A stretch of 64,000 nucleotides of DNA, taken from NCBI GenBank assembly GCA_031213475.1, contig JARUPZ010000030.1:4953661-5017660 (forward strand). The letters run 5' to 3'. Origin of the DNA: Nereocystis luetkeana. Its lineage: Eukaryota > Sar > Phaeophyceae > Laminariales > Laminariaceae. A program made the translations under genes and the position numbers. Under the pieces are notes generated by a model. The model worked only from the letters and a program-made list of their open reading frames with translations, did no database searches and had not been told where the DNA came from. Shown one piece after another: positions 979 to 63,736 of this stretch. Numbering within the stretch: position 1 is the stretch's first letter; each line of letters begins with the position of its first letter.

Positions 979-1530
979 ATACATGATGTACTGCTGTAAT
1001 TGTATTCAAACTGCACCACTATATAAGGGCCATTCTTGTCGGAGAGCTTTTTTTCCCATAATTTCGGCATTTTTTTCGCGCAATTTTTCAATCTTCCATA
1101 TTTTCCTGATTTTTTTTTTTCCGAATAAATAGGTGAAATTTAACGAACTTGATTTTTTTGCTTCTGGAGAATTTCACAAATAGTGACAGAACGCCTCCGT
1201 ATATCATTATTTCCAAACTTTGGAAATTATGGAAAAAAAGGCTTTCCGATAAGAATGAGCCTAAGTACTAGCAACCTCGCCAAGAGCAAAATCCCTCTGT
1301 CCGGATATACGAGAAGCGTTTATCTGTGAATACCTAAGACAAATATTTATCGTGTTCCGGGACTTAGAGGTGTCGGGTAGGTATATCTCAGCTATATAGA
1401 TTCAATCTGCAGAAATACAAAAAATCGACTTCCACCATACCAGGTACACTGATGAGTGAAACGTTTCCAGGTCACCCATTGGACAAAACGCCCACCAGCC
1501 AGTCAGCCAGTCAGCCAGTCAGCCAGTCAC

Positions 1531-1782
1531 CTTCAGCGCGCCTCCCTTCACGTGCTCCTCCAGCTGCGCCTCCCAGTTCGACAGCACCGACATGGGGCAA
1601 ACCACCAGAGTGCCGACAGGCCCGCACGAGCCACCACCGCCACCCCCCGAGCCCCCCCCGGCAGAAACGCCTTCGTGTTTGGTCGGCTCATCAAGCGAAG
1701 GCAGCACGGCATCGCGCCGGGCGAGGCGGTTGATCAGCTCGTCTTTCACTCCCTTCTCGTTCAGTCCCTTGGCCCTGAGCAT
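1531..1782 (-). CDS. HLTF-like exon: SAP-like helix and SNF2 motif Ia
   Basis: 84 codons. Begins MLRAKGLNEKGVKDELINRL (second SAP helix), then a Gly-Ser linker, then GTLVVCPMSVLSNWEAQ, the SNF2 motif Ia block. Acceptor GGCAG after a long C-rich tract (plus strand 1817-1844), donor AAG/GTGACT. The next exon must lie left of the window. Confidence 0.87.
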
Positions 1783-4700
1783 CTGCCAGCTCAGTTTTAC
1801 GGGTGCGGACACGCAGGGTGGGGGAGGGGGATGGGGGGGGGGGGACGCGATACATTTGAAAAAATCAAATGTACGGAACACAAACATCGAACAATAAACG
1901 CCCAAGTATCACTACAACAACGAACAACAACGGAAAATTCTCACACGGTTCCCGATTTCTACTAGTACGGGGGGCCATAGTTAACAGGACCAAATATTGT
2001 TAGTAAAAATGGTTAAACATATAGGTTTTTATGTATACCATAGGTCCTGTTAACTATGGTCCCCCGTAATACTTTTTCTCCATCCTCTGTTCGTACGGAA
2101 CCCAAAACAAGGAAAAATCCTGTTCATGCCTCGGAAACACGAGGAGCCTCCGGCGCTTTCACAGCAGCGGACAGGCAGCGGGAATGACGGTTTTTTTTTT
2201 CAGCTTTATTTTTCACCCGGACCAAAACGAAACCTTCACGTATGGGTTTCGGGAAACGGGATTTTTTTTTGGTTTTCCGACGTAAGTAAAATCACTGAGG
2301 ATTAGGAGCTATCTAGCGGTTTGGTCCCCTGACTGACTGACCTTCTGCATTAAAGCTACGACAATAACATATTCACCCTTTTTTAGAAGGGCTGTGGCCC
2401 CGTTTAGGGCAATTCTAACTACTGTACAGTAGTTTGTCCCCCAAAAGTCCCGTTTCGGGCACAAACCACTCAAATGCTAACTATTTTGTCCCCCCAAAAG
2501 TCCCGTTTGGGGCACAATCTACTCAAATTCTACAGTAGGTAGATTTCCCCCCAGCAAGTCCCGTTTTGGGTACAATCTACACTAATTCTAACTATTAATA
2601 GGTTGTCCCCCCAAAAAGTCCCGTTTTGGGGACAATCCACACAATTTATAACTAATAATAGATTGTCCCCTAAAAAGTTCCGTTTTGGGCACAATCTACA
2701 CAATAATTTAATCCTCCCAAAATCCCCATTTTGGGCACAAACCACTTAAATCATAACACTAGTTTGTCCCCAAAACGGGACTGACTGCAGTCCTCAAAGG
2801 TTCAAGTCCCAAAAGAGGCCTCGACAGCGCCCGAAAGACCGGTACATCCTTGTACATGTCGCTGAAGATAAGCCTTGATTGGTTTGAGCGCTATGACACC
2901 CTGGTACGTACAAAAGTAGTAGGTGTTGGGCCGAGGCCTCAAAGCGGTCGGGGATCGGGGATGAAGACGTAGCTGCAACTTCTCGGGGGGGGGTTCGGCT
3001 TTGCCTTGCCTGCCCGGCTGCATATGTGGTTACCGTATACCACTCTGACTGGGAATATAAGATACGGTTGATATTCATATTATAATACAATTGGTTATTA
3101 TATTCTCGGACAGAGACGCCCCCTGGGAAGAATTTTCGAGCCGAGTTTCTCCAAACCTACAGGGGGGAACACGCACACAAGAGAAGAAAACGGCGGCTTA
3201 GATAATTTTTTCGACGAGGTGCTTCCTATGAATAGATTAGCGTCTTCCTCCATGTCAAGAGAGATATAACCAGCTTCGAAATTCGTCCGAGGGTATCTTA
3301 TTATCTTGTTTTGCTTGTTATACTACTGTTATTACGGAGGGCCATAGTAAATAGGACCAAATATTGTTGGTAAAAATGAGTAAATATATAGGTTTTTGAC
3401 TGTACCATAGGTCCTACCAGGTATTTACTATGGTCCCACGTAATATTACGGGGGGCCGTAGTTAACAGGACCAAATATTGTTAGTAAAAATGGTTAAACA
3501 TATAGGTTTTTATCTGTACCATAGGTCCTGTTAACTATGGTCCCCCGTAGTAGTACATATACCAGTCTGTCCGAAAAATACGAAGACCGCTTTATGCTTC
3601 ATAAATCGGATTATGAATACTCAGGCGGTCCTAACATTTACGATAGATGGTTGCTGACCATGTGGCAAGCGAGCATTGCAGCATCATGTAGTAGTGTTTA
3701 CGACCTGGTCAAGCTCCGATATAACGGGTTGATAGTCTACTACTGCTGTACATTGAGTAGACTCCTCGTTTCATTGAAATATCCGAGAATTTTCCCAGGT
3801 GGTCGAAGTTGTAAGCATTTTGAAGCAGAACCATTATTGTGTGCGTTTCATTCATCCGCGACGAAAAATCTATGGTTGATTATCATGTCGACGGAAGGGC
3901 ACACCGACGGAGATCGGAAAGGGTTGGTTATACAGGGGCTATATAGGGTCTAAAAGTCTGGCATAGATTACAACCATTTTTTTTTACGATAGCTGGGCCA
4001 CAGGCCCGTGCAGCCCTCGCATCATGTGGCCCTCGAGGGCAAAGGTTTACACACTGCGAACAGGATATATCATCTGCAGAAATACCATCTACAGATCCTA
4101 TCCTGCCGCTATGAGATGCTGTGCAGGATGATTTGTACAGTACAGGTCAAACTCAGGAAACAAGCCCTATGGATCATGCAGGATATACGGCTCCCACCCG
4201 GCAACATGAGCTAGATCATACAGATCATACAGATCATACATATATATCTATCTAGATCGTGCATCAAGTGGGAATGATCTGTAGATGATCTGTAGATGAT
4301 TTATCCGAGGTGTGAAGGGTTACGGCGCCACACAGCAAGCAGGGCGAGTGTTTTTTTGACGATCTCTGTCTGGTCGGCGGGACTGCTGATTCGTTTTTTG
4401 CCCAGACACAAAGTACAAGCAAACTACAGGTTCGAGGTTCACGCAAGAAAAAAAAAACACACACACACACAGGTGTAGCGGTACACGCAAGAAAAACAAA
4501 ACAAAACACACACACAATCATTACGATTCATCGACTTTTCGTCGTGTGGCCCATGTACCCGCCACCGAGTAAACCCTCTCTCCGTCTCCCTACTAGAAGC
4601 CAGCGCCCTGCCTTCAATACTACCCCTCGCGTACTTGGCCTACCACCACGCTACTATTTTTTTTTATTGTTCCTTTTTTTTTCCCCCATTCCATTTATTA

Positions 4701-7700
4701 TCTTCGCCCTTCGTGGTCTCCCTTCTCCCCACTACGGTTTTTGCCTTGGAAGGCGTTTTTATCGCGAGAAGACTTCGGCCCTTCCTTCCCTCGTCGACTG
4801 GGATCGAATTGCGCCATTGCGCCTACCCACGCTACTAGTAATAGGCGCTCTCGGCAGTCGATTTCGTGCATTACTTATTCTTCAGTGCGACCCGCGCGAG
4901 ATTCGAAGTCCAGCGCCAACTCTCAGCAGCATTCGGGGAAGGTATTGACAATGACACAAACTGGTGCTGCAACAGTAACAATGGTTAAGTGTATGGGCGC
5001 TAAAAAAATAACACGCCATTAATAGTACATTTCAGCGAAGCAAATCAACATTCGTACGTACCACCGACCGATCAGAAATCGCACGGTCGCAAGTCACCCA
5101 CAGGGTGTGCAACACGCCTACATGCAGACCGTTCTGGAAAAGACGCCGGGTTGCTTCGACCGCCACAGCCTCGCGCGTGCGCGTCCTACAAGCAACCACG
5201 TTGCGTCTCTCACCGCCTTCAAGTCGGGCTTCTTCAGCTTCTTGTACGCCTTCACTGCTTCCAACCGCGTCTGTTCCTGCTGCTCCTCCGGCGTTTGGGC
5301 GGCAGGCGCCGGCTCGGGCTCCGGCTCCGGCTCTCCCTCCCCTTCTTCTCCCTCGGTCTGCCGAGAGCGCGTTGTCAGGCAGGCGATCGCGGGCAATAAG
5401 CATCATGGCGTGTCGCACAGCGACTAAACGCGTGCTATATATACCAGGTATCACTATGGGCGGAAATATAATTATCATATACACATAAATATAAAGACCA
5501 AATGTTCCTTATATTTACAGCCAAGAGTGGTTGACGGTAGCCGTTACCAGGTATATAAGAGCCGTTAATACGTAGATCTGAAGACCAAAACGGTCCACAT
5601 ATTTTTGGCCAAACTGTCACTGGGACTGACCGGGGCCCTTGACCCTTTTTGAAAAGGACTGCCGTCCAGGTTTTGGGACGAATTCGCTCAGAAATTGAGT
5701 GGTTTGTCCCCAGAATGGGACTGCAGTTTGTGTCCCAAATGGGCGAAGGGCGCTGAGGAAGTACGTACCCAATAAGGCATGCTTATCGTTGTGTACCTAC
5801 AGATCAGATAGATCAGATAGATCAGACAGATCATGATCTATCTATCTATCTGTATATATACGGTAGATCACCTAGTTCCTTGCCTGCCGTTGTGAAAGGC
5901 TGTGCAGGATACAGATCATACAGACCATACAAATATATCTGCCCTGAAAGATCTAGATCAGTAAGTAGGGAATAATCTGTAGGTGATCTGTCAGTGATCT
6001 GTACGGGGTATGGAATATTCGTAGGGTTCTTATACTCATTTTTTTCTCTCTCTAAAGTCGATTTTTGGGGATGAAGAGGTTTTGGGTGAGAGAGGGTAAA
6101 AAGCCTCCTACTAATAGTAATCCTCGTGGGGGGGTGGGTCTTCAGAGAGGGAACAACTCGGCGATTGAAAAACAAAAAAAGGGACGACTACAGCGAACGG
6201 CAACCGCGAGTCATACACAGATTGGGGAATGAGTAATGCACAGATTGGTGTCCGACTTACAGTTACAATGCAAAGGAGTTGCACGACACGGGGTGGATAT
6301 GTACAGGTACGAAGTATAGCATCATCCTTCCTACCCGTGCTATCGATCGCACCAAACTTGTCGATGTTTTTGGTCGATACTTCGGGGGTGTTCCGAAAGG
6401 GGTGTCTTAACTCTTTCAGGGAAAAATTCGGCCCCGTTTTTCGGGGACAAACCAGCCAAAATTTCTGAGCAGTTTGTTCCCAAAACGGGACCGCAGTCCC
6501 AACAGCACCAATCTTAAGTTAACTAAGGTGCTATTCCCAGCGTAGCATGCTGACGAATCTGCGCTCTTCTATTAACAACCCCGTGGTTCCTTCCGTCTAT
6601 GGCCAACGGAAGGGAACGCACTTTAGATCATCTGCCAGTAGATAGATGGAGGAGTTAAGCAAAATAACGCCGACCAAGGTTTGGCTCAAAATATATTAAA
6701 CAAAATCGAAAATGCTGAACATCGATCATGTCGGGGGTTTTCCTATTAATAGTATCCAAACATATAAAAAATTCCACACGTCGGAGACATCATCGATCCC
6801 CAGGTCCGAATTTAGATCCTGCAGGGAAGACCTGCTTTTCCTGATCTGCATGATGTAGCTCATGTTTGCCACGTCGGAGCCGTGTAACCTGCATGATCTA
6901 TTAAACAGATATCACATGTTTCCCGTCAAAAGATGTGTACTGTACAGATCCTGCACACCTCACAACGGCGTTTACGATCTAGATTATCTATCTGTAGATG
7001 ATATGTCTGTAGATGATCTATCGGTGGATGATCTATCCGTCCGACGGGTGACAAAATCGAAGTATCGAGGTTATCGAAAAATACGGATGTATCGACATAT
7101 CGACGTATCGAAATGTCGAAAACACGAAAGTATCGCTTCGTGCCACCCTTCCGCTGTGGCCAAAGAGGGCACCAGGTTCGATTCCACGCCCCCCGCAACT
7201 AAATAGTCTATGGCCGTACGACTACAGACATGCACGATGCCATGAATGATATCGGGTACCCCCCTCCCCCCCTACCCTCTCCCGCCGTATTTTTGGTACA
7301 CCCACCACGCCACATATCATACATGTCTTGGACAAACAAGACCATAACACCTTCCTGACCCCACCTCCGAGAGAAACCACCCTCGTACTCGTACTTCCAA
7401 AAGCGGCACGCGCACCTGGGGGCCAGGGAGGGCGGGGGTTTCCCCGCGCTGGGCGGCCTGCTCCTTGGCCTCTAGCTCTTCCAGGACCCGCTCGTTCTCC
7501 TCCACCGCGCGCACCCTCTCCACGTAACTCACGCCCTGCGGCGGCTGGGCTAGGACAAGAGAGATCACCTGGAGGGTCTTGCCCTAATGGTGGGCGACGA
7601 GGAGACAAATACCGGGAATAAAAATTGGAAGAGGGTTGGGCGGGGCAGGGCAAGACGAGAGAATGGCGGGTGGGGGGGGGAGAAGGGTTTCTTACACACC

Positions 7701-10700: not shown

Positions 10701-13700
10701 GAGGTCAGTCAAGGCAGGTATTTCGGGGCGCGTCAAGGTCCCTTTCGACTTCAACATACTACTTATAGTGTAGGGGGCGGTCAGATAAGACCGGTATTTT
10801 TACAGGTGGACGGAACCCCCCCCTTAATACAATGTGGACGTACAAAAAAAACTTGTGGAGACCTTCAACAACGTAGCACACCGCTAGACGCATCGACTTA
10901 AGGGGTCGTCAACACCTTGTGGGAATTGCTATGGAGCGTACATTGTTCAAAGTCTCCACATTTTGTTTATACGCCGACGTTGTGCAAGTTTGGGCGCGCC
11001 AAGGCCTCTTCTGGCCTTATTTATGCTATTAATAGCTACCAGGTACCAGGTATATAGTCTAGCGGGCGGTCAACGGGTCAAACCTCGGTCTCCTATAATA
11101 TATCACACTGGCCGGAAATAAAATGACAATTTGAAGTCTGGTATGAGTGTCAAATGGTTGTTATATTCCCGGACAGAGTGACACGTGGCATCTTCGCTCA
11201 CCGGTGGGGTCGGGTTTGTTCTCCCTCTGCAGCATCCACGCCAGGCCCTCCGCCTGGTGCTGCATCAGGGTCGTCGCGAGGACTGGAGCCGTGTTGGCGG
11301 ACGCCTCTTCCGTCAGCAGCTGCGGCGTGTCCGCGTCAAGCTTGTCGAACATCTCGTCCAACTCTCTCTGCCCAATTTTTTCGGCGAACAAAACAAAAAC
11401 ACAAAAAACAAAAAACAAAAAACAGCGCAACGCGGCAAGCAAGTAAGCGACGGGACTACCTACACATCTAAAGAGGCGCGTCTCGTTGTCGTATTTGAAA
11501 GTGTTCTGTTCGCATTGCTACTGCGTAGTATGACGCTAAAAAGTGCATGGAATCAGGGCGATCGTGGCGGCGGAAGGGGGGGGGGAGGTAAGCAGGAGCA
11601 GCTAAATTCACCCAAAAAAGCAACCGACGCAAAAGGTCCCCATCAATCGAAACCAAAGAGGCACGAGTCGTATGTACCCGTGCGCTTTTATCTCAGCCCT
11701 GCAGTTTCAGCTGGACGTGCAACCGCAACGGCAACTGCAACTAAAATTACAGCTATAGCTGCAGCCGCAGCGGAGCGAGTGGTGGCGCAAGACGTGTCCA
11801 CCACAACGTCAGCCGGCTCCGGCGAGGGCGAGGCACAAGCGCTGGGTTAACGTGACGCGATCTTATCGTGACGCGGGCAATCGGGGCAGCAGGTCGGGGG
11901 AGAGGGGAGGCGCGAAACACTTTGGCGCCGGGTTTTCTAGAGAGCAAAAGATGGACAACGAGAACGAAAAAAAAACGTTCTTGGTCTTCGAAGCACGGTG
12001 GGTCGCACCCGACCTTGAATACGCGCCAGGTGCACCAATCGATACATCATACATAATCCTAAACGAGTACCAATTGTCTCCCTCGATGTGTCAACGTCGA
12101 ACCAGATCGATCGATACATCACACGGACTCGTAAATACGTACCTGGTGCCAGGAATCTCCATCAACACACCCCACGCATCGAAGCAAAATTGATCGAACC
12201 ACTACAGCGCTAATAGTATGCACATCGACCGGTACATCACCTCGAACCAGTCTCGGCGCAACAACCACGACCTCTAACCCTCATCACCTGTGTTTTGATC
12301 GGGTTCGCGGTCGTGGTCCTCACGGTCACCGACGCCCCCCCGCCCCCTGTCGTAGTACCGCCTCCAGCCGATGGTCCGGGTTTTCCCGTCATGCCACCCT
12401 TAAGGTACAAACTGCTCCACCACGCGGAAAAAAAAATGTTAGTTTTCGGACGAAAAAGAGTCGATCCGCCACGCCAACGGTAACAACGTATGGGACCAAA
12501 AAGTGCGTGTCAATTTCGTCAGAAGGCGTTCGGGGTTTCTTATAGTACTACTGTGGAGGCCACTACATGCCGGGCGCCAGAACCGTGGGGCAGTGCGAGC
12601 ACGAAAACGAAAGCTTGCATACAGGGCTCGGGGCCATTGGAGGAACCTGGGGAGGGGGGTTAATGGAGGGGTAATACTCAAGTCATGCACGGCCGTAGTC
12701 GTATGGCCATAGAACCTCGCGTCCCTACACTGGCGGGACGGATGACGTCGGGTTTTAACCGACCAGAAAGGCATTTCTTGCACCAAGCGCGATTCAACGT
12801 GAGGTGTTGGGCGAGTCGCATGGCTCGTGAGCTGCATCCTACGAAGCACCGCTTGTGAGGCGGACTTTCTTGTATACCTGGTATGGATGACAGCGACGAA
12901 GACACTGATTTTTCTGTTTTATGGTGTGGTCACTTCCAGACACAGCAATCGGTATACCATGTAACTGACTTGTGGGTGCCGTACCGTACACGCACTGCAT
13001 GGTACGATCACCCCCCTTGTGCGGACTCAAGTTTCTTCACCCCGCGCCAATGATCTAACTCGACCGCCAGTCATGGTGGCGGCCAAAAACCCGCAGAAAA
13101 ACGGCACCCTTGTTGTGTCCAACTGCAGTACCTCACGAAGTGATTGGCGTGCTTCACAGCTTCGTCGGCGTACGACGCCAACCCAACCAAAACATAATAT
13201 GGACTACATTAGATGGCCGGGGGGGGGGGGCGGCGGTCGACGCGTACAAACAACAGCAGAGAGGGTCGATTTCGCGGGGAACCCGCGCGGTAGTCGTGCT
13301 CACGGGCACGACGCCCTCCAGCTACCCCCTGCGTCGCTATGTACATAGCATAGCTCAGACCGACAAGTCTGACTGACTACAGTAGGAGCCCTTTGTCTAC
13401 GTAGCTATACCCAAGACCGATTCGTCTAAATAGTAGCCATACGTCCACGTGGTCTTCCTAGACAGGTAAGTCTAAATAGTAGCCCTGATGTCCACGTCGC
13501 CTTACCCTCAGAAACGAAGAATTAAATAGTAGCAAAACGTCTACGTAGCTATTCTTCGACAGGTATGTCTACATACATAGTAGCCCTGTGTTGACGTAGT
13601 CCTACTCAGACCGATGAGTAATAAATAGCAGCCCTAGTCAAAGCTGCCTTGTGTAGACAGAAAAGTATAACTCGTAGCAGCACGTCTACGTAGCCTCACT

Positions 13701-16843: not shown

Positions 16844-17244
16844 CTGGGCACACGAGAGTTTTCATCGCGTACCAGTTACATACCGGATGGCTTAAAGTGT
16901 TTGCAGCAGCTGGAGTGCTTGCTTGTTGGTCCGAGCGATGGGTCGATAGGGAGCTTGGTTCCGTGCTGGCTCTATACGTCGTGCAGCCATACACCAGGTA
17001 CATGCATTATGTGTGTCTGCGTTCTTCACATAATACCGTTCTTTCTAATCGTCCACATGCAGCACAACCAGTATATGCCGACTCTTCAATCCTAGATAAA
17101 TACAAGCTCTGTGGTCCCAAAACTACGACAAAGAGATACTACTGTACCAGGTACACTGATATGCAGTAAGTAGAGTAGACAGCAGTGCAATGCTATGTCA
17201 TCGTACTGGATACGACAGGCACGGCATACACATCCTATGAACTA
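16462..17244. repeat. direct duplication of ~230 bp
   Basis: 16462-16688 and 17012-17244 are diverged direct copies (CACGTCGACATCCAGCACAA, GTCATCGTACTGGATACGAC). The HIRAN first-half exon lies between them. The second copy has TACCAGGTA at 17145 where the first has GTACCGG. Confidence 0.82.
16767..16843 (-). CDS. HLTF-like exon: first half of HIRAN domain
   Basis: Reads 25 codons plus two bases, including EVFYGCADLMIVGCRYYS across the junction. It aligns with the first strands of the HLTF HIRAN domain. Acceptor GCCCAG at the 5' side, donor GTAAAA at the 3' side; the split serine codon AG/T joins exactly to the next exon. Confidence 0.75.
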
Positions 17245-18519
17245 CTTCGGAGTACGAGTATTATAGCTCGCCCTCCACAGATGAGATGCCTACGTACGTA
17301 CGCAGTGGCCGTACGCATGGATGAAAGTATGGCAAATCGTTCGCACGACCCCCCACCCTTTATATTGTACCGCTGAATTACAACGGTACTGATTATGATG
17401 GGATACAGTCTCAAAACCCTGCGGCAAAGTGATACCAGGTATCTTTTACAGCCTACAGTTTAGAGCAGCTTCAGGGATTGGTATCATATCGCGTTGCCGA
17501 GTTATATACGAAAAGAACCCCAACGAATTCCCCTTACGAAAAATTGATGAAATTCGTACGAGATATACAAGGTACATATCTTGTACCGTACCTGGTATTT
17601 TTTCTTCTTCAATATTTTGGATGCGGTTCATTTCATACCTGGTACACATATACGATACATCATACATACAATATTCATGACAACATAACCGTCAAAGTAT
17701 AAGCAGGCATTATCATGAAAAACACTACAAGCAGCATGTTCATACCCGGGGTATGCGCCTGCCTGGTAAACTGAGTACCGTGTTCGGTCTACACCAAGCG
17801 GGAGGGTAGGCACGACCTAATACGCAAAAACCATCCCCAACCCAGCCCAAGAAAAAAACTACCAGAAGCACACCTAGCAGGAAACCCTCCGACCCGAAAA
17901 GTCGGAAAACGTCAAGTAGAAAAACACCCCCCAAAGTCCAGTCCTGCCGACGACGCCACTTGCTATGATCAGGGTCGGGACACTTTGAATCCCTGGACAG
18001 GTTTGCCTACTAAGTCGGTACTCATTGGTACTGACGCGTGTTGTTTGCTTAGAGATAGAAGAAGAGCTGCTTTATTCCTTTCGTGCACGCGGAGACTGAG
18101 AGCCAAGCTCGTGCCTCGCTGGGAAAGCACCCAGGGTTTTCTATCTAATATACGACGCCTCCCAAGTACTACAAATACGATCCCAATACTTGAACCCAGG
18201 TAATTACCAGGCTTTCAGCCTCATTTAAGGCAGCATCATAACACCTACGGTAAGACATCACCTTTCTCTAAGATGTCGTCCCACCGGAGTAAAACCACCC
18301 CCGGTGATAAAAACTACAAAAACAATAGAAAAAAAGGGCAATTTCATCACCGGGGGTAGATGCCGCCTCCCTGTGTCGCGGTAGGGCTTTCAAGCAACAC
18401 CAGCAAATACACCACACGGGGGTCCACGCAAACGCAGCGTAACGAAAGGTGCGCGAAGACCGCGAGCACGGAGAACAAAACTGAATAAAGAACAGAGCTT
18501 TTCGGCACAGCGGGTCCAT

Positions 18520-19012: not shown

Positions 19013-19020
19013 ATTTTATA

Positions 19021-19545: not shown

Positions 19546-20639
19546 CCCCTATTTTCGTCCGTCTTATCACCCCGTCTGCTATCAAGGTGGGCGCGCTAAA
19601 TGATACTGCAACAAAACTCCCAAATATTCAATATTCCACGTCGTGCTGCTATCACTATCACCCCCCATCGATATCACCCCCGGTGATAAAAGCAAAACCC
19701 GAATAAAGCATGCCCCATGTCATCGGCGTTCGTTAGATATCTCACTCCACCGCAGGAAACTACCCCGGGTGACGAAAAAATCAAAACCGAAAAATATTTC
19801 GGACCAACACCAACACCCGGTACATTTATTAGAGAGCTGGCTTTTGTCCGATATTATCATGTACTACGGTACTATGGTACAAGCAGCAGTACACCTGGCA
19901 CTACAAACCAGGGATGACACTTATACCGCAATTTAGAGTTATGCAGTTGTAGTCAAATATTGATGGTGAATCTTCCTATTAATATTAATAGGGTAGTTAT
20001 TTGTTATTTAGGCACTCTGTTTTGGATAAGGGTATACCTGGTATACCAGGTACTGGGATATTATTATTATGCTTGCCATCCGACAATGTGTAGTGTTGTT
20101 CTATTAAACGACTGACAGAAATATTGTAAGCGGCTCAATCAACCTATTAAGGCCGGATCTTATGGGGGGTTTTTAAAGGTGATTATATGGCTGTTTACGG
20201 AGGCTTCGGGGTTTCTGGTCCCATATCTGATCAGATTTGATCAAAATCACGTCTTATGGGGCCTGTTTGGTGGAAAAAATGTTCCTCCGAGATTTTATCA
20301 CTCCTGAAGTTCGATGAAATGTTTTTTTTTGGCAGCCTTTTCTGATCAACTCTGAAAGTGATAAAATTTGGCTTTGCACAAGACCTCGGTGGCATTATAC
20401 AATTTTGTTTAGGTTATAGACTGGGTTCATGACGGGTCACGACGCTACATGCTTGGTTACGCTTGTACACAGCTGGGCTCCAACACTTGTGCATCGGCCA
20501 CCACGGAGAGGGAGGGCATCAGTACCTTGGCCACCATCGTGTCCCTTGCGGCCGCCCAACTGCAGCTGCTCTAGGCAAACAACTTTGGAAACGAATAGGA
20601 CGAGACTACAGCAGCAGTATCAAAACAATCTAACGGTTT

Positions 20640-36091: not shown

Positions 36092-36126
<35 letters not shown>

Positions 36127-42100: not shown

Positions 42101-45100
42101 GGGAAGACAAGTCCCGCGCCCTCTTCCAGCGGCGGCGGGGCCGCCGTTGCCGCTGCTGCCCACGCAAGCGGGAGTGGTGCATCCGTCGGGGGTGATGGGT
42201 CCCCTCCCGCCGCCGCCATCACCGCTGCCGCTAGCGCTGACTCCGTTGCAGTCGCCGGTTCGCGGCGTGGTTGGTATGCCTGGTTCGGAATACGCGAGGG
42301 GGACGCAAGACGTGAGGCAGGACGTGAGGTTCGGCGGCGGTGTTCCGAGCGGTGATGTTGCCGCCGTCGCGACGACGGCGGGTAATGCTGTGGCTGCTGC
42401 CGATCAGCAAGCTTTCGTGGTCGACGGGGGCGGCGGCGGTGGGCGGGCGGTGGCGGCGGCGCGGGGTGGGGGCGAAGCGATGGTGCGTAGCGCCACGCCT
42501 AGCGTGTCGCCCAGCGTCGCGCCAAGCGTCGCGCCAAGCAATCCGCCGGGTGTTTTTGCTGAGGGTGTCCGAGCTCGTTCCTTGGAGGAGGAATCCTTTG
42601 GCGCTGGCCATGGCGGTGGCGGTGGTGCGGCCGCGGTGGTGGTTTGTGCCGGTAAGGTCTTGGCCAACGGTGACTGTCGGGATGGAGGAAGAAAACGCCA
42701 GCCCGCGGCGCCTTTAGTCGCCGATACTGGCGGTGACCGACACCAGCAGCCCACCATAGCTGCGCTCGGTGCTACGCAAGAGAGACTGTTGCCACCCGGC
42801 AGTCAACGAATTGGCGAGGGCGCCGCCGCCTCCGCAGCAGCAGCAGCAGCAGCAGCAGCAGCCGGAATTCAGGGAGGCGTGGGGGGACCGCTGCCGACGG
42901 ACTGGGAGGCCGGGGTTGCAATGAGAGGGGATGGCGTTTCGGAGGCGAGTGTCGGGGACGTTGGCGATCAAGCGAATATGTTGGATGCCCACCCTCCTAG
43001 CCGGCATGCCGCGCACGGTGAGGGAGCGGGAGACCCTATCCCACCAGGGGCGGCGGCAGTGATGGTTTCAGTGACTCCCGGGGCTGCGAATCAGGCGATG
43101 TACCCGGCGCCCCCCCCGCCGTCGGCGGGGGGTGGGGGCGGGAGGGCGCACATGCAAGGCGCGCTGCTTCCGCCCCCGGCGCTGCCCTTAGCGGCGCAGC
43201 GCAGCATCGACATGAACGCCGACCTGTTCCACATGAAGCACATGGAGATTACGCTTTCTCCGGAGGAGGTGGAGCGTGCCGATTTAAGGTTGGTGATTTT
43301 GGTTGGTTCATGTTTTTGGTGCGTGATCGTTTGTTTTGTTGTTCCTGTTTTGTTATTGTTGTTTTTGTTGGTCGTCGTCCGTTTGTGGGGGTCGGTGTCA
43401 AAATGGTTGTTTTCGGTCGTCAAAAAGGTCTACAAGTACCGTTGATACAGTAGTGGTAAATAGTGTGTAACTGTAAACTACAACCGCTGTTAAGCCTTAC
43501 CGGAATACGAAGTACCTGGTACCAGGTATATCTAAAGTTTTTTTTTTTTTTTTTTTCTCTCATCCCATTCATTATCTTCGCACATCTTCTTCTCTCTCTC
43601 CTTCCAACTCGTAACTCAGATCCGGGGTCACATAGCAGGCTCTTCTCCCCCCTTCCCGCTACGGTACGTGCCTTCATTTTTATCGCGAGAAGATTTCAGC
43701 CTTTTATTCCCTCGTCGACTCGCATCGAATTGTGCCTACCCACGCTGCAAGGCGCTCTCAACAATTGAATCCTTTTTTTATTTTTGCAAATAAAGTCAAA
43801 GTAAAAAAATAAATAATAAATATCTACAGTATAATGTGTTGGTTCGATCGGTGTAGTCGTTCCTTTGTTCGTTTTCGATCGCTCACTCGTGTTGATTGTG
43901 AATAGTTCGTTCGTTTTTATTTCCTGTCGGCGTCGGGTCGGATCGTGTTTGGCCTCTTATCTGCTCTCGCGGCTCATTCTTAAGTCGGAAGGGCCATGTT
44001 GGGGGGGGGGGTCCGGCGTTTTGGGTGAGGTCGGTTAGCGTGCGTGCGTGGGTCCGTGGGTAAGTGGGTGGGTATGCGTGTGTGCGTTCGGCGGTGGGGG
44101 CTTTTTTCGATGCGCGAGGGTATTCTGGATGAACAAAAAAAGTGTGTGCGTTTAGGAGGTCTCTGCCTTTTTTGGGCTGGTGTGGGACCGTGTTACTTAT
44201 GGGACAGCATGGATGCACCGCTGTTTCAGAGGCTGAAACTGAAACTGTACCGTAAAGAGTGCAGCAGCAGTCCTTTACATCTCTGTGCCTCCGAGGCACC
44301 CCTCTGGACGTACCTGTAAGGACCTTCTCGGACGTACGTGTGCGGACCGTTTTGCGTACGTTCCACGCCTCGGACAAATAGATGATCGAAATCTACCTGA
44401 TCTACGTACAGTAGGTTTTTCAAGGCAGATAGACATATTTCCGCATATTGCATGATCTACCGTACATCAGCTCATGTTGTCCTGGGGGACCCGCATAGCC
44501 TGCATGAAACTGCAGCACACGTTTCCTCTGGGTTGGATCTGTACTGTACAGATAGATCATGCACAACCTCTCATAACGGCAGGCGAGGAACTAGATCATA
44601 GAACTACATACTTAGATCACAATCCCTGAGCGTGCTCGGTTGGTGCATCCCTGGCCTCTCAGAGCTCCCACTTCCAAACCGCCTCCTTTCATTACTTGCC
44701 GGACCTTTCCAGCAGTTCTTTGTTTTCTCGGTCCTTCCTTCCTTTTTTCTTCTTTCGTTTCGTGTGCGTGCGTGTTCTCCGAGCACGGCATCGCGAGAGG
44801 ACCCGGCACCGTCGCGGGTGTCAGCGGGTGCTGGCGGGTTGAGGGGGGGTTGCAAGGAGCGTGGTCGCCGCTTTCGTGCCTAGGCGTCGCGTGTGCCTCG
44901 AGACACGAGGGATGCATGAACGGGCTTTGTCTGGCTTCGATTTATGATTGTTGATAGAGTATGTACGAGTTATGAAGGTCGTTCGGGAGGGCAAGACAAT
45001 AGTCAAGCGGTGCTTATTTTTGCGACCACGCTGAAGTTGAAAGAGGAAGGTGTGCAGTCTGAACACCAACGTTATAGAGCTGGCGAACGACGGCCACGGT

Positions 45101-48100
45101 GAGCACCGGGCTTCACGCGGGGCGGGCGACGGAGCTGATTGTGGCAGAGAGTGATAAAAGCTTTATCCGGGCCGAATCGGTAGCGAGGTGGTCGCGAGAG
45201 GGGCGGGCGGCGTACGAGGCTGAGAGAGAAGCTCTTCTGTGCGATTTGTTTCTTTTCTTCTTTTCGACCCTGTGTAAGGTGTTCCGATCAGGCAGAAAAA
45301 TATTACACGATAGGGGACGGGGGTTTTATTTCCTTCCCGAGTTTTCGGTTACATTTTCATTGTTTTTGCTGCTGTGCCGTGCTTTCGCTTTCTTCGTACA
45401 TACAGTACAGACATAGAGCATATCGAAAGAAAAAAATAAGTACAGACAGTAGTACCCTACCTGGGGTGTATGTACGTACGTACGACATCCGCGACGCGAA
45501 GCGTATATGTGGCATTCGAGCTGACGTCGGAGCTGTTTTTTCCTGAAGCATGGCGGCGGGACTCTTGGCATCATCAAGTCGCCGGTTTGCAATTACGATC
45601 CTTGAAAAAACTAAACTCAATCGTGGACCTCTGTTCGCTTCGCATAATTTGATGTACTTTTTTTCCTTCCTGAGCGAGCGTAGCGGGCGGCGCAGGCCGC
45701 CCGCGGAGCGAAGCGCCTTGTATATAGTACATAGATAAATATATAGATATAGATAGATCATGATCTGTATTATCTGTCCGAGGTGTGGTATGTTGATATC
45801 AGCCAGGGTCGTTCACGGGTCATGACCGGACGGTCAGGAAGTCTTTGAAATCTCACGGGTCGGGTCGGGTTAGGTGACCGGACCCGACCCGATCCGCGAG
45901 GTTTTGATTATCTCCAAGCCCACCCGATCCGAACCGTACTGGTGTACCAGGTATACCCGAAGGGTCCTTACTTTCGCTTACTGAGTGGCACGTAGCATTT
46001 CTGCTTGGAGCTTGTAGCAGGTTCGTATCAAAATCTCGCCGCTCCTTCATTCAAAGAGGTAGGTAGCATGTACCTGGTGCGTATCATAGCACGAAGATCA
46101 ATGTCGCATTTCACGCTCCATGAACAAACCGCTACGCTTTGCCCTCACGATCAAACCTTTTCCACTCTCAGCACACATGTTGTAATCAAAACGTCCCTTC
46201 TTTACCCTCGGCCAAACCGTTACACTCCACCGAAGATCAAATCCAACCGTTACACTCTACCCAAGATCAAATCGAAAGGTTACACTCCACCCAAGATCAA
46301 AACAAACATTTGCACTCCACCCCAAGATCCAATTGTTTTAGCACGTCCGAGGAAGGAAGGAAGGAAGGAAGGAAGAAGGGAAGGCTGCTACGTATATATG
46401 TGATAAGTGCCTCTCTGGGCAGATATAATTACAGTCGCATCTCCCAGGATGCTACCAGGATACCGTGTTATCAGCCTCGTGATGAAGGACGGCAGCGGAT
46501 GCATGCCAAGCTCCAACCAACCGCATCCCACCCCACCTGTTCCTCCCGGCACCCACCCTAGTCGCTAACGCCCCGACGGCGAAACGCCTCCCAGAAAGCA
46601 CAAAAGTTATCCCTACCACCTGCCCCAAACCACCACCCCTGCCCCTCCCGAGCCCTGCCCTACCCTGCTTGCTTTTCCTGCTTCAATTTTCCTCGTTCTT
46701 ATGTTTCCACCTTATTCGTTTTTTCGTTTTTTTTTTTTCTTGTTTTATCTCTCTTCTTTTTTTTTTTTCGTTTCAGCGGCATGACCCCCGGAGAAGTGCT
46801 GGTGAGGTTTCTATCGTTCTTCGGGAGACAGTTCGATGCTAGCCGCGTGGGGATCAGCGTTGGGCGCGGCGCGCTCAACAACCCGTTCGCTCTGTCCTCC
46901 GCCGTGGACCCTCGCACGGGGATGCCCGTCATGGAGGCGCACGTGGTGATCGAGGACCCGCTGGATACGGAGCAGAACGTGGCGAGGAGTTGTTTCGGTT
47001 TCCCTCAGGTATAAACCAAAACAAAATGGGCAAGAGGCGTTTTTTCCTTTTTTTTTTCCCCCCCCTTTTTTCTCTTGTGTTGTAGTTTACAGTTGTTTTG
47101 TTTCAGACCGGAGTACTATGAATAGTGATAGGTATCTGGTATATGCACTCCGTATGGTTTGTCTTTTACTGTTTCGTTGACTACAGTATGTAGAAATACT
47201 TTTTTCTGTGTGTCGTTCACTACAGTATGTAGAAATGCTTTCTTCCTGTGTTTCGTTTACTACAGTATGTAGAAATACTTTCTTCTGTGTGTCGAGCGTG
47301 TGTTTTAATGGGGGTGGGGAAAGGGAAATAAACGGACGGGGGAAGATGCCATCGGGAAATAAAGCATCCGCTCTTGGTTAAATGTGTTTTTAACCTCCAG
47401 TCCAACGGGGAATACACGTGTGTAACAATTGGTGGCTTTTTTGGAAATACTATGGCGGGGGACCACCCCATATTAAATAGGACCAAATATTGTCCGTAAA
47501 AATAGGCAAATATATGGGTTTTTGTGTGTGCCATAGGTCCTATCTACTATGGACTCCCCATTGTCGAAGACAACCACCTTTCTCTGAAGATCGTGCGATG
47601 GTGTGTTATTTTGTCACCCGTGTGACACGGTACCAGTTTTGATCATTATTTCCCGGAGAGAGGTCAAAGCTGCATAGCCGCAAAAAACTACCTACGAGAC
47701 GGGGAAAAAATGCTGTACCAGGTATATACAAAGTAGGCATCATTAATGAAAAGGTGTGTTGTAGAGTCGAAGGGGGGAATAGACGGTGCCGTCTTTTCGT
47801 GTGGGCATACGGTATACGTCCGAGCGAAGGACCATCGTTCGGAAAATTAACAAGCTTGCTAAGATGTAAATATCAACCGCTCAATCCGTCGAACTCGACT
47901 CACAGCTGACGTTTGTTCGTATTGTGTTTTTTTTTTATTATTATTTTCGTAGCATTGTAATTGGTTGATGCCGTAGTACCCTCTGGCCGTAAAATTAAGG
48001 AACGCTTGATCTTCATATTAATGTGTAAACGGTCCTTATATTTCAGTCCAGAGTGGCATGTTTCACGCGTCGGACAGGTCATGATCTACAGATAAATCAT

Positions 48101-48619: not shown

Positions 48620-48652
<33 letters not shown>

Positions 48653-49205: not shown

Positions 49206-49299
49206 GTTTCTAGTGTTTTTTTTTAGTGTTACGGTTTTACCTGGCCTAGTGAACCGCTGCGAATAACGCTTTGATTCGTTTTTTTTGTTGTTCGGCTGG

Positions 49300-52681: not shown

Positions 52682-52682
52682 C

Positions 52683-52718
<36 letters not shown>

Positions 52719-52730
52719 GCCGCTGCTGTT
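52682..52730. repeat. (CTG)n microsatellite
   Basis: About 15 CTG/CCG units. Confidence 0.93.
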
Positions 52731-53532: not shown

Positions 53533-56500
53533 CTATTTGGAAGTGGCGCACGACGGCATGCATTGCGGGAAAGAAAGCGCGCCGATGGAAGCGGCGGGGG
53601 GAAAGGGGGGGGGGGGGGGGGGGGGGGGGGAGGAGGAGGAGGGGGGGGGGCGCGGGGAAGGGCGGGGTATTGAACATCCTGAGCGAGCATTGTAATGTTT
53701 CCTGGCGATTTTGGCTTCAGCCAAGAAAATCGATGCGTCCTTCTGTCCTTGTCCAAGCATCGGCGTAAAACGTGAAAGAGGAAACGCAAAACACGAAACA
53801 GAGGGTTTTCTGGCTCGTTTTTCGTCGAACCAATTTCACCAGGGAGGATGCCAACCTACACAGCAGCAGCAGCAGCAGCAGCAGGAGGAGGAGAAGGAGC
53901 AGCAGCAGCATCATCATAAACAGCAAGGAAAAGCAACACAAAGCCAAAAAAGAACAGCCGAGACACAGCAAACGAAGGGCACGCCCGACGGCCCCGCGCG
54001 GCTACCTCCCGCCTCACCTCGCGCACTTCCCGCAAACGGACCTCGCGCACTGCTCCCCGCAGAGCGAGCACCTGTCGCTGATGAAGAAGTTCGTGATCAC
54101 GCAGGCGCGCCTCCCCCGCGCCGCTTTGCCCTTATCCTTCCCATTCCCCTGCCCCCCGATACCTCCGACTGCAGCCCCCCTCCAGAGACCAGCAGCAGCA
54201 GCACCACCACCACCACCACCACCTCCGCCGCCGCCGCCGCTGTCTTGCTCGGCGCTGGTAGAAACGCTCTTAAGCTTGCGGGGCACCCTAGGTGCCGGGC
54301 GCGGCATGTCGCTGTACCACGCGTTGACGTCGACTCCAAGGAGCGCGAGAGCTCTGTCGAGGGCGGGGTTGATGACCTTGGTGATGTAGTATTTGCCGTT
54401 CAGGCGCAGGCCGCTGTCTTCGGCGAGGAACTGCTCGGGGGAGACCACCTGTGCGTACATACGCACAAATTTTGGGGTTTTCAGGATGTGGGGTTTCATT
54501 TTGGCCCAAAATTTACGACCCCTTCAACACTCACTGCGCCCAGACTTTTTGGGAAATACACTTGGAGTTAGTGAGGCATTGTTTCGGCAGAGATAGATGC
54601 CAGGTGATAAGCACAACACCGGCGAGGTGATTGTGAGAGAGGGGTCGGGTCGGAAGAGCGAAGACTCGGGGGCGGTTCTCGAGAGGCGAACGGTAAGGTT
54701 TTGAACGATCTAACGGGAGCGATGATGGAGAGGGGAGACAAAACATGCCAAGGGAAAGTAGGGTTGAGGCCGAACCGTAGCTGCGTAGACCATGTGTACA
54801 CATTTGGTCAGATAACCCCAGGTAGGAAAAGACTGGGGGCTAACAACGCGCCGTTTCTTTCTAGATGTACAGAACGCCCACGATACAACATGGAGAAAAG
54901 GATTGAGGCAAAAGTAGTGGTAAGTAAGGATCAGAGGGAAGACGTGGAGAACGATGAAAAAACATGACGGAGTGTGCAAGAAGTGCTGTTGTGCTGGACG
55001 GGGAAATGTCGAAGTTTGTTGATATTTTACAAAGAGTTGCACAGGGATGTACGTTTTCACCTAATCTATCCAAAAGGTATATATTAACGACCTGATCGTA
55101 GCAGTCGACGCAGCAAAGCAGGGAGTCACGGTGGGCGGAGATACGGTGTTGGGATTGACGTTTGCGGATGGAATATCAGAAACACCCGAAGGATTGCAGA
55201 AAAAAATAGAAAAGGCGCTATTACGGGGGGCCATATTAAATAGGACCTACGGTACACACAAAAACCTGTATATTTACCTATTGTTACTAACAATATTAGG
55301 TCCTATTTACTACGGTCCCCCGTAATAGAATACACCAGGAAATAGAGGGTGACGGCGAACGTAAAGAAGTGCGCAGTAGTTAGTTGTATGCCACGAAGAT
55401 AAGGTGGACCCGGTAAATTCCAGTTGGAATTGGGGAGAACATGAATTACCTATCGTAGACCGGTATACGTACCTTGGCATAGAAATTTCAAAATAGTGCT
55501 CTTGGGATACACACATAGCAAAAGTAATAGGAAAGAGTAAATAAAGCACACGTAGGCATGATGGATGCCATCCTAACAGACTCACACTGGAGACACCAAT
55601 ACGGGGGACCATAGTTCATAGGACCAAATATTGTTAGCAAAAATGGTTAAATATATAGGTTTTTATGTATACCATACTGGTAGGTCCTATTAACTATTGC
55701 CCCCCGTAATAGGATTAAGAGACGTATCCTGATGAATGTGATAGTACCAAATCTAGAGTATGCAGGAGGAATATGAGATTGGAATGCGACGTTCGTAAAA
55801 CAGTTGGAAACGGTACAAATGACAGGAGCTTAAAAGATGGCCAAGTACGACGAGGAAAACAGTACTAAGAGCAGAACTGGAAATGTACCCATCTAAGACA
55901 AATAGACACATCAGAAAGTTGAAATGGCAATATAGTGTAAGGAACATGCCAAAAAAGAGGTTGCCAGCCATAGATGATACCTGGTAGAGCTGTATGGGAG
56001 CGAGCTGGAATTAGGTGGGATAGCGTAGTTGAGAAAATATGAAGGGATTTATAGGAGGAAACCAAGAGAAAATTAAGTTCGCAGATTTTTTTGGACAAAA
56101 GTAGAAGAAAATATAGACTAGAAGAAAAAGGCTAGCGCAAAGAAACAACTGAAATCGGAGAATCGCTTGGAGATGTCCGGGGACTTGGGCGAAGGGATAA
56201 GCATGGAATTCGCGAAAACGCCGAAAATGTGATTTCGTGTAGGGGACCTGGACCTGCCAGAAAGAAAGAAAAGTTATACCAGTAGCCAGGAGGAGGAAAT
56301 AGATGCACAGATGTGTCCGTGTGGCAAAGCAATAGAGAGTAGAACTCATTTAGTAGGAGAATGTGAAATGTACAAGGAGGAACGGGATGTGTTGAAAGAG
56401 GAGATGAGGAAAATGATGAGGAAAATAGACAAATGTAACATGGGGGAGTGGTACGCTAGCAGCGACAAAACGATCGCTATTCTAAGGGATAGACAGTGGC

Positions 56501-59500: not shown

Positions 59501-59894
59501 GCATCCCTACAATGCCGGGACGGAGCACGTCGGGTTTTCACCGACAAGGCAGACATTGCATGCAACGAGACGAGCTAAGCGCCGCGAGGTGTTCGGCGAG
59601 CTGCATCCTGCTAAGAACCGCGTGTGAGGCGGAATTTCTTGCATATGGATGACAGCGTCAAAATAAAATACAATGAGCACTTGGGGGGCAGGCAAGTGCT
59701 GTGGCTTGAAAGGGGGGGTCAAGCGGGATAAGCACGACAAACTATTGGGAACGTCCAACAACGAGGCAGCGACGTGGATGTTTGTCCTCTCGTCACTTCG
59801 CTTCGAAATCTACGTTTACCTCTTTCGCCTCCCGTTCGACGACGAGAATAGCCACCACAACAACGCCAACCCATAAAACACCAAACAGGGCGGG

Positions 59895-59945
<51 letters not shown>

Positions 59946-62900: not shown

Positions 62901-63736
62901 GCCGAGTGGCAGAAGGTTAGTTACGCAAAAGCCCCGGAAGCTTTGTCCCCCACCGGGCTCGAGGTATCGGACGCGTGCCTTTTGACGGCTGGTACGGTGT
63001 ATTGCTACTACGTGGAACTGCAAGAAGTGTGCTGAATCGCCAGTGTCGCTCGAGGCACCGCTCACTAGGGAGAGAGCGATGGAAAGGGAGGGTGGACACC
63101 TACGACGCGCCACCAAAAAATGTCACTTGTCATGATATGAAACCCACGCACCACGTATTCTACTTTGCATGGGACACACCACTCACTCCATGCGCACACC
63201 GTCGAATCGTGGCGCAGAGGGGTCCGTGCGCAACGTCAGAACCCCCCGTACGCGGGGCGGCGCTCGTTCCGACATCAGAACACCAGAACCTTAACCCAAG
63301 AAGTCTACTAAACTCACGACAGGCCAGTTTTGGGTCCAGCGTGTAAGTCCTAACCGAGTCGGCGCTCCTACCAAAAGGGCACGGGATAGCCTCAACTTCC
63401 ATGAAATATACCAGGTATGTTTGCCGAATGTACGCAAAATCGTCCTCGCGCAAGAAAAAAAACAGACCCATTATATTCGCAACCTGCATTCTGAGCCAAA
63501 CCCTATGGAATGCTCAAAATATTTACTTACGTACGGGTTCATGAGTCACCACTTTTTTGGGCATGTCATTTTTGGCCATAAAGGCGGGGGTGGCATCATA
63601 CGTACCGGAGCATGACGGCTTCGACGCGGTATTGAGAGCCCCTGGACAGCACGCTGAAAAAGTCGATGCCAAACAGCCTCGCCATTTCTGACGTGCGCCC
63701 CACTAGGTCCAGCTTGTCCATGATTAAAAGGCAAGC
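53301..63736 (-). CDS. REV3: DNA polymerase zeta catalytic subunit REV3, C-terminal half (5' partial, 10 exons)
   Basis: Ten exons on the minus strand: 63606-63736, 62727-62868, 61700-62289, 61139-61238, 59964-60131, 59318-59410, 57943-58119, 57232-57390, 54018-54448, 53301-53532; all junctions GT-AG and in phase. A family-B polymerase of the REV3 type: GIDFFSVLSRGSQYRVEAVM, motif A DFQ/SLYPSMMIAYNLCYTT, motif B LNARQFALKMISNVTYG, motif C VVYGDTDSLF, then VRRDGCPLLVKMLEKVLRLL and two C-terminal cysteine clusters. REV3 extends mismatched or lesion-containing primers in translesion synthesis with REV7, REV1 and the Pol31/Pol32 subunits in the nucleus. All catalytic aspartates are present, so it looks functional. 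The N-terminal and exonuclease-like regions lie right of the window. Introns hold a LINE relic and several MITEs. Confidence 0.95.
53861..53912. repeat. (CAG)n / (AGG)n microsatellite
   Basis: CAG units, then AGGAGGAGAAGG, then CAG again, in the short last REV3 intron. Confidence 0.92.
54018..54448 (-). CDS. REV3: REV3 exon: C-terminal domain with first cysteine module
   Basis: VVSPEQFLAEDSGLRLNGKY, YITKVINPALDRALALLGVD, a poly-Gly/Ala linker, then CSLCGEQCARSVCGKCAR, the zinc-binding CysA module. Acceptor GCACAG, donor GCGAG/GTGAGG, phase 2. Confidence 0.93.
55221..55325. mobile_element. MITE-A copy 6, inserted in LINE reading frame
   Basis: TA-TTACGGGGGGCCATA ... CCGTAA-TA. Removing element plus one TA rejoins the LINE reading frame (AL then EYTRK), which gives the exact empty site and a TA target duplication. 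Confidence 0.93.
55600..55709. mobile_element. MITE-A copy 7, second insertion in the LINE
   Basis: Interrupts LINE codons at ACCAA/TAGG; contains CATACTGGTAGGTCC where siblings have CATAGGTCC, a shorter insertion of the TACCWGGTA kind. Confidence 0.88.
56705..57210 (+). repeat. 530-bp repeat family, full length
   Basis: GGTTAGGTTGGCGTCGGTTG to GGAGTACACCCCTCCC. Directly follows the LINE end at 56690 and stops about 22 bp from a REV3 exon. Confidence 0.85.
57232..57390 (-). CDS. REV3: REV3 exon: thumb, AIVA..KYCERVPYVV block
   Basis: VRLGSYASDVYMPPSAIVAS, KAMANDPRAEPKYCERVPYV, AGARLMDL. 53 codons, acceptor ACCCAG, donor CTG/GTGAGC. A 530-bp-family repeat ends about 25 bp beyond the donor. 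Confidence 0.95.
57671..57775. mobile_element. MITE-A copy 8
   Basis: TTACCGGGGACCATAGT to GGCCCCCCGTAA, flanked by TA; lies in a REV3 intron (57391-57942). Confidence 0.9.
57943..58119 (-). CDS. REV3: REV3 exon: thumb
   Basis: GIETVRRDGCPLLVKMLEKV, LRLLFTTKDLSQVKGYLYRQ, GDFIFAKE. Exactly 59 codons, acceptor TACCAG, donor GAA/GTGAGC. Confidence 0.95.
58225..58505. mobile_element. MITE-B copy
   Basis: TTTCAGGGCAGATAACTAGA, GGGAGATGCATAATCTGCAT and GTAGATGATCTACGTAGATG blocks; lies in REV3 intron 58120-59317. Confidence 0.65.
58565..58920. repeat. ~32-bp tandem repeat
   Basis: About eleven units of CCATGCTCATTGGTCAAACC then AAATGCGATT, alternating TTCGCC and TTTTTGCC forms, in REV3 intron 58120-59317. 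Confidence 0.93.
59318..59410 (-). CDS. REV3: REV3 exon: thumb entry
   Basis: VYLPCILASKKRYVGHMYES then PKDLKPSFDAK, the KKRYVG motif of family-B polymerases. 31 codons, acceptor GCCAAG, donor AAG/GTACGT. Confidence 0.95.
59445..59665 (-). repeat. 530-bp repeat family, truncated, minus strand
   Basis: CATGCATGGCCGTAATCGTA to CATATGGATGACAGCG. It is the uninterrupted sibling used to define the CCTGGTA insertion at 12875. Confidence 0.8.
59898..59963. repeat. CAG/CAA microsatellite touching a splice donor
   Basis: On the minus strand it reads GTTGTTGTTGCTG directly after the REV3 exon codon AAG, so the repeat forms the donor itself. Confidence 0.92.
59964..60131 (-). CDS. REV3: REV3 exon: catalytic motif C (YGDTDS)
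   Basis: VENHRTWQASVVYGDTDSLF, then PGRSLEEAHRIGKDM and LKFEK. 56 codons, phase 0. The donor AAG/GTTGTT lies on the edge of a CAG/CAA microsatellite (59898-59963 on the plus strand). Confidence 0.96.
60557..60661. mobile_element. MITE-A copy 9
   Basis: TTACGGGGGACCATAGT to GGCCCCCCGTAA, flanked by TA; lies in the REV3 intron 60132-61138. Confidence 0.92.
60770..61095 (+). repeat. 530-bp repeat family, 5' truncated
   Basis: AGTAGGATGCAGCCCGCCC to ATCGAGTACACTCCC, ending about 45 bp short of a REV3 exon. Confidence 0.78.
61139..61238 (-). CDS. REV3: REV3 exon: after motif B
   Basis: YTAAGYSGRMPMSELADAIV then ESGRQTLIAAART, equivalent to the YTAANFSGRMPC helix. Acceptor GTAAAG, donor ACG/GTGAGG; 33 codons plus one base. 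Found by phase and alignment. Confidence 0.9.
61700..62289 (-). CDS. REV3: REV3 exon: motif A, insert and motif B
   Basis: SLYPSMMIAYNLCYTTILGK, then a Gly/Ser/Pro-rich insert of roughly 70-80 residues beyond what I recall for animal and yeast REV3, then VLPLMLREILETRVMIKGAM and LNARQFALKMISNVTYG. Acceptor CGGCAG, donor ACGG/GTGAGA. The insert is uninterrupted coding sequence. Confidence 0.94.
62727..62868 (-). CDS. REV3: REV3 exon: up to motif A aspartate
   Basis: VMKPRNFVALSPSRQQVAGQ, ESIPLVFEPRSRFY, VVVLDFQ. The motif A Asp is here and SLYPS on the next exon. 47 codons plus one base; acceptor TCCGCAG, donor CAG/GTGAGG. Confidence 0.95.
63606..63736 (-). CDS. REV3: REV3 exon: segment before motif A
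   Basis: ACLLIMDKLDLVGRTSEMAR then LFGIDFFSVLSRGSQYRVEA, one of the most REV3-specific stretches. Acceptor CCCGCAG, donor CTCCG/GTACGT, phase 2 with the next exon. Earlier exons are outside the window. Confidence 0.93.

Follow-up and report, generated by a model that had tools for sequence, protein, structure and literature searches.

The footprints of Tc1/mariner transposons are expected to look like the product of inverted-repeat tips that have annealed around a mismatch at the centre, and in Sleeping Beauty the A/T alternative at the centre of the footprint derives from an A:A mismatch in the annealed overhangs. The consensus footprints of Sleeping Beauty are given as TACAGTA and TACTGTA (PMC4378557). 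Here we describe a nine-base motif, TACCWGGTA (W, A or T), in the genome of the kelp Nereocystis luetkeana, starting from a stretch of 64,000 nucleotides, hereafter the window (GenBank assembly GCA_031213475.1, contig JARUPZ010000030.1, positions 4,953,661 to 5,017,660 of the forward strand). Like the Sleeping Beauty and Tc1/mariner footprints, the kelp motif has TA on both sides, an odd palindrome and a central A/T alternative. Unlike them, it has five bases rather than three between the TAs and occurs over 180,000 times in a single genome, and its source was not found in the searches made. A preliminary description of the window had interpreted the motif as the excision footprint of a TA-targeting transposon with alternative central A or T. 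This interpretation is supported by a 7-base-pair (bp) difference between occupied and empty paralogues, a symmetric target, double motifs sharing a TA and an asymmetric 6-bp class, and we consider it very likely that each TACCWGGTA is a repaired excision scar of a cut-and-paste DNA transposon.

Other described systems share some of these properties. HIP1, the highly iterated palindrome of cyanobacteria, is also a very short palindrome present at high density genome-wide, but the kelp palindrome can be shown to be a 7-bp insertion, and its decay looks neutral; paralogue gaps, an indel scan and one-mismatch decay, all given below, point to a site that is inserted and decaying rather than maintained. 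The Minos-type footprint, TACGAGTA, has a similarly longer overhang between the TAs, and the TACGAGTA/TACTCGTA class is raised in this genome (48 in the 329-kb sample defined below, about three times the conditional expectation); however, the Minos footprint is even-length and not self-complementary. Passer, of the pogo superfamily, leaves footprints of 0-4 bp (PMC9976928). As portrayed in that account it is likewise a TA-targeting element with short scars, but these are shorter and variable, whereas a single 5-bp product dominates in the kelp.

The window contains 24 exact TACCWGGTA sites, 16 with central A and eight with central T on the plus strand, and all 24 starts listed in the preliminary description matched exactly. 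The mean in 100 dinucleotide-preserving shuffles was 0.28, with a maximum of two. The over-representation claimed for the window extends to the whole assembly (465 Mb, 1,987 contigs), where 182,395 sites were counted against 1,744 for the reversed-pattern control, so that the genome-wide frequency is about 100-fold above expectation rather than near it. Site density was one per 2,550 bp in the genome and one per 2,667 bp in the window, and the window is therefore ordinary for this genome and not special. With central C or G in place of A or T, there were 10,882 sites genome-wide (control 1,899). The near-matches named in the preliminary description were also present in the window (TACCGGTA six times, TACTGGTA four times and TACCCTGGTA twice).

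Finer counts were made in a 329-kb sample composed of the window, twenty-five 10-kb places and five 3-kb loci chosen for holding the motif, with the overlapping loci L004, L005 and L008 omitted. Seven further loci, L034 to L040, lie outside the sample counts (TA-N5-TA sites, flanks, general inverted-repeat scan, indel scan and one-mismatch tally); L034 to L039 were included in the follow-up search for TACCWGG tips and in the search for recurrence beyond the tips, and L034 to L040 in the paralogue alignment. CCWGG occupied 130 of the 1,335 TA-N5-TA sites in the sample, seven of them contributed by the five motif-chosen loci, and the next commonest 5-mer occupied 21. Between 0 and 9 sites lay in each of the twenty-five 10-kb places (mean 3.96, variance 5.96), and the sites are thus dispersed with mild clumping. 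Two of the 24 window sites (25365 and 25741) fell in mechanical open reading frames (ORFs) of at least 200 amino acids, where about six were expected by area. This comparison used 18 of the 24 listed ORFs of that length, covering 25% of the window, and since such an ORF does not equal a gene, the low overlap gives weak support to avoidance of exons by the motif.

Paralogous repeats showed what the motif adds to a sequence. An alignable paralogue across the site was available for 10 of 137 motif instances, and in seven of these ten the net gap was exactly 7 in at least one paralogue; three of the seven had 24 to 27 paralogues each with the 7-bp gap. Other TA-N5-TA sites, used as a control, had a 7-bp gap in 17 of 255 alignable cases; of these 17, three overlapped a motif site and another looks like a tandem duplication of 7 bp. 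Window 57151, a control site at which 7-bp gaps were frequent, was read as a tandem duplication and rejected as a footprint, and a second control pattern, with four instances and no paralogue, was uninformative. In one occupied copy the sequence reads AGGTCC-TACCAGG-TATTTACT, against AGGTCC-TATTAACT or AGGTCC-TGTTAACT in empty copies; in another, AAAACC-TACCAGG-TATATATT stands against an empty AAAACC-TATATATT. When the sample was compared all against all for small indels, 674 entries of 3-14 bp were obtained, and 91 of these had the form TA-X-TA. CCWGG was the commonest 5-mer at X, with nine entries from five places, and only CGAC was commoner (11 entries). These data show that TA plus CCWGG is a discrete 7-base insertion with the TA duplicated.

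The flanks of the motif are symmetric, with a purine before the first TA and a pyrimidine after the second, and the symmetry extends 6-7 bp outwards (A at -6 and T at +6; A/T at -7 and +7). Occupancy of TA sites in the sample followed the same pattern (RTAY 92 of 6,216; YTAY 27 of 4,312; RTAR 11 of 4,500; YTAR 0 of 2,606). Such a symmetric preference centred on TA resembles a transposase target. Two units sharing one TA (TACCWGGTACCWGGTA) were found at 15,917 places genome-wide, compared with two in the reversed control. Centres were equal in 9,539 of these doubles (4,800 + 4,739) and opposite in 6,378, the latter being expected if doubles arise from separate events. If centres are independent, about 12,756 of the doubles (80%) fit separate events, and the equal-centre excess (about 3,161) points to a measure of local duplication or to strand bias in repair. 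That excess is what could be said for a self-propagating micro-repeat, a short palindrome spread by gene conversion or by slippage during replication, for which cyanobacterial HIP1 and mitochondrial GC clusters are parallels. We regard this explanation as extremely improbable: a first copy cannot arise by slippage, single copies lie at scattered TA targets in unrelated sequence with a symmetric preference, and 6,378 doubles have opposite centres.

One-mismatch sites numbered 184,988 genome-wide against 64,511 in the control, an excess equal to 0.67 of the exact sites above control. Were the scars all equally old, this would correspond to a per-base divergence of about 7.7%; their ages surely differ widely, and part of the one-mismatch class may have arisen as variants of the repair. 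The sample contained 147 one-mismatch sites, spread over all nine positions (9 to 23 at each) and with A-to-G and C-to-T changes prominent, whereas each of six control palindromes had between 25 and 72. Exact and singly mutated scars together (roughly 181,000 exact and 120,000 one-mismatch above control) would represent some 300,000 events. Substitution at every position bears on the alternative of a functional palindromic protein-binding site (an insulator, origin, recombination or regulatory site) kept or spread by selection. A palindromic 9-mer with flank preferences could bind a dimer, and the motif is genome-wide; nevertheless, the changes at all nine positions, the tandem overlap of scars, and an exact 7-bp insertion with duplicated TA that is present in some repeat copies and absent from others make this alternative very unlikely. 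The same decay indicates that many scars are old, which suits steady hopping better than either a mobile 7-bp non-autonomous element or a ciliate-like mass developmental excision making scars in bulk. Scars do far outnumber any element seen in the sample, as such processes would have it. However, overlapping doubles require successive rounds at one site and we know of no mechanism for a mobile 7-bp element, and we judge this class of explanation highly improbable.

We therefore return to the excision of a cut-and-paste transposon, and to how it might yield this product. The element would insert at TA, duplicate it and later excise, with repair leaving TACCWGGTA. The predicted source ends are TACCAGGG...CCCTGGTA. 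The transposase would cut the non-transferred strand about 5 nucleotides, sometimes 6, inside the element, and the two CCAGG overhangs would pair by four G-C pairs around an A:A mismatch, to be repaired to A or T; this follows the scheme of Sleeping Beauty (CAG), lengthened by two bases. In-register joining of 6-nucleotide overhangs would give a minor product, CCAGGG/CCCTGG. The corresponding 6-bp class, TACCAGGGTA on either strand, was found 11,422 times genome-wide (5,725 + 5,697; control 409), compared with 1,578 (780 + 798; control 362) for its counterpart TACCTGGGTA; in the sample the counts were 12 and 0. Random gain of a G beside a scar would affect A-centred and T-centred scars alike, and since the class is asymmetric we infer that the source inverted repeat begins 5'-CCAGGG. 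The pattern of Tc1/mariner footprints, in which inverted-repeat tips anneal around a central mismatch, is seen both in the dominance of central W over central S (182,395 versus 10,882) and in the asymmetric CCAGGG class. Membership of the source in Tc1/mariner is plausible but unproven, because its transposase and ends were not found.

Several observations weigh against this interpretation or parts of it. The sites at window 3415, L033:212 and L035:2269 carry the scar at apparently the same place in a single repeat family and may go back to one event passed on by descent; L026:7056 belongs to the same family but uses another TA. The gaps at L012:3808 and L029:4420 each depend on a single, weakly similar paralogue. 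Three of the ten alignable instances (L002:1501, L003:1501 and window 17145) had no 7-bp gap in the paralogue alignment, although L003:1501 had one in the indel scan, and many empty copies of the main repeat family have TG, not TA, at the site. Over half of the doubles have equal centres. The count of 11,422 includes at least one tandem array, of seven sites at 528-bp spacing, so that not every TACCAGGGTA site is a separate event. An overhang of 5 nucleotides exceeds the 2-4 of the Tc1/mariner superfamily, and TACCATGGTA is raised (3,002 versus 623 in the control), as would also result from a 3-nucleotide CCA overhang filled in without overlap. The last point favours an excision footprint with a 3-nucleotide overhang (end CCA), formed by a single A:A overlap and fill-in, either as a rival or as a minor route: 3 nucleotides is the usual overhang size for Sleeping Beauty and Mos1, and joining of this kind would also yield CCWGG, with TACCATGGTA as a predicted further product. 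As the main route it appears unlikely to us, since its overlap contains no Watson-Crick pair and yet CCWGG greatly exceeds CCATGG (182,395 versus 3,002), and since CCAGGG/CCCTGG (11,422) requires five or six letters of one end.

The failure to find the source of the scars also counts against their origin by excision. The preliminary description had seen no full matching element in the window, and this holds more widely: searches of the 329-350 kb sampled, less than 0.1% of the genome, for inverted repeats tipped with TACCWGG (exact, one-mismatch or CCW-only tips) yielded no convincing pair, and a search of the sample for recurring sequence beyond the tips gave nothing convincing. Three transposase models gave no full element either. 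The PF13358 profile had no match in the genome, although it matched in 3 of 14 control genomes. PF01359 matched neither here nor in any control genome, and its negative result is therefore uninformative. PF03184 gave 28 matches, of which seven loci were inspected (L034 to L040) and none had convincing TA-flanked inverted repeats; the best TA-flanked pairs in L034 to L038 had 6-7 mismatches in 20. A general scan of the sample for TA-flanked inverted repeats (up to 4 mismatches allowed in 18, with the first 5 bases identical) gave 288 pairs, four of which begin CCA or CCT; 120 of the 288 were inspected, and the starting letters of all were tallied. The best CCW pair, L032:381-1787, was rejected as lying inside a longer inverted repeat starting TAGCC. 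The best one-mismatch pair, L011:2797-9734, was also rejected, as it has TG for TA and the similarity of the enclosing repeat passes the tip in most copies, so that the tip is not an end. An element-like sequence was noted at L032:366-1802, with 247-bp inverted repeats of 89% identity starting TAGCCAAAAATAGG.

Rarity of the source is not a contradiction, because each germline hop would leave one permanent, neutral scar: given a long time, a small number of active copies could produce scars in the hundreds of thousands and yet remain rare. A more specific account, which we consider slightly less likely than not, is that a single transposon, whose overhang (tip CCAGGG) would be self-complementary and unusually long, made about 300,000 germline hops in the kelp lineage and either remained at very low copy number or went extinct.

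The motif sites and 6-bp-class variants of the window are as follows, the term footprint being used in the putative sense argued above.

1438..1446, no strand: footprint TACCAGGTA, exact match
3415..3423, no strand: footprint TACCAGGTA in a ~110-bp repeat; paralogue net gap exactly 7 in 27, same sequence in 1, other difference in 5
5442..5450, no strand: footprint TACCAGGTA, exact match
5545..5553, no strand: footprint TACCAGGTA, exact match
11037..11052, no strand: double footprint TACCAGGTACCAGGTA, two units with one common TA, exact match
12875..12883, no strand: footprint TACCTGGTA in a different repeat from 3415; paralogue net gap exactly 7 in 3, 11 in 7, 2 in 2
17145..17153, no strand: footprint TACCAGGTA in a repeat; 5 aligned paralogues, none with a 7-bp gap
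17433..17441, no strand: footprint TACCAGGTA, exact match
17589..17597, no strand: footprint TACCTGGTA, exact match
17636..17644, no strand: footprint TACCTGGTA, exact match
20035..20052, no strand: two abutting footprints TACCTGGTA-TACCAGGTA, exact match
21818..21826, no strand: footprint TACCAGGTA, exact match
24930..24939, minus strand: 6-bp-class variant TACCCTGGTA (reverse complement TACCAGGGTA), sequence match, class counted genome-wide
25268..25276, no strand: footprint TACCTGGTA, exact match
25365..25373, no strand: footprint TACCTGGTA within a mechanical ORF, exact match
25741..25749, no strand: footprint TACCAGGTA within a mechanical ORF, exact match
29338..29346, no strand: footprint TACCAGGTA, exact match
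31225..31234, minus strand: 6-bp-class variant TACCCTGGTA (reverse complement TACCAGGGTA), sequence match, class counted genome-wide
43513..43528, no strand: double footprint TACCTGGTACCAGGTA, opposite centres, one common TA, exact match
45945..45953, no strand: footprint TACCAGGTA, exact match
47716..47724, no strand: footprint TACCAGGTA, exact match
55978..55986, no strand: footprint TACCTGGTA, exact match
63409..63417, no strand: footprint TACCAGGTA, exact match

Other short TA-bounded classes and repeats were observed alongside the motif. TACWGTA occurred 162,074 times genome-wide against 54,742 in the control, TACSGTA (S, C or G) occurred 85 times in the 329-kb sample, and TACSGTA and TACGAGTA/TACTCGTA were 2 to 3 times their conditional expectation; several TA-targeting families may have left scars. 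An abundant repeat of about 110 bp has inverted ends CGGGGGACCATAGTTAA beside TA (window 1962-2071, 3327-3549, 55217-55328, 57652-57783 and 60553-60665, and other loci). As its tip is CGG, the same rule predicts TACSGTA scars, and that class is raised. L012:3474-5162 is dense in short inverted and direct repeats (GCTGCCTACAGACAGCTA and kin) with a large potential hairpin, and holds one CCWGG scar and one TACCTCGTA insertion. A recurring repeat of approximately AGTAGTACCCTACCTGGGGTGTATGTACGTACG includes a CCTGG unit whose setting, TACCC...GGTA, is unusual (window ~30950-30990 and ~45450-45490, L024 near 3404 and L036 near 982). The sequence CTATTAATA occurs 16 times in the window when both strands are counted, and only one occurrence has the full palindrome GCTATTAATAGC.

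In the window, the ORF at 61696-62334 on the minus strand matches family-B DNA polymerases (PF00136). The closest two of 54 proteins have 93% and 92% identity and the third, from Laminaria digitata, 88%, which by itself places the genome in a kelp-like brown alga; some of the more distant proteins are named DNA polymerase zeta. The ORF is probably an exon of the zeta catalytic subunit.

In one open-access library, no report of such a motif was found among the papers listed on genome-scale footprints, kelp transposons or iterated palindromes (for the last, 8 of 6,484), judged by titles and abstract openings; of 217 papers that print TACCAGGTA, TACCTGGTA or TACCWGGTA, the 30 listed all look like chance matches on the same basis. 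Mechanisms of the kind proposed are known; the 5-bp length of the scar and its scale are, as far as we know, new. Once the element is lost, an excision scar can seldom be recognised, being too short or too varied, whereas this scar is nine specific letters, so that an assembly by itself reveals the history of hopping (its rate, age, target choice, repair outcome and avoidance of exons). The case also offers a test of whether an element that moves by cut and paste can stay rare and yet rewrite a genome at about one site per 2.5 kb. If the account of a single long-overhang transposon is correct, the kelp genome contains a dense and datable record of a nearly invisible element, and such scars would be a main source of 7-bp insertions in this genome.

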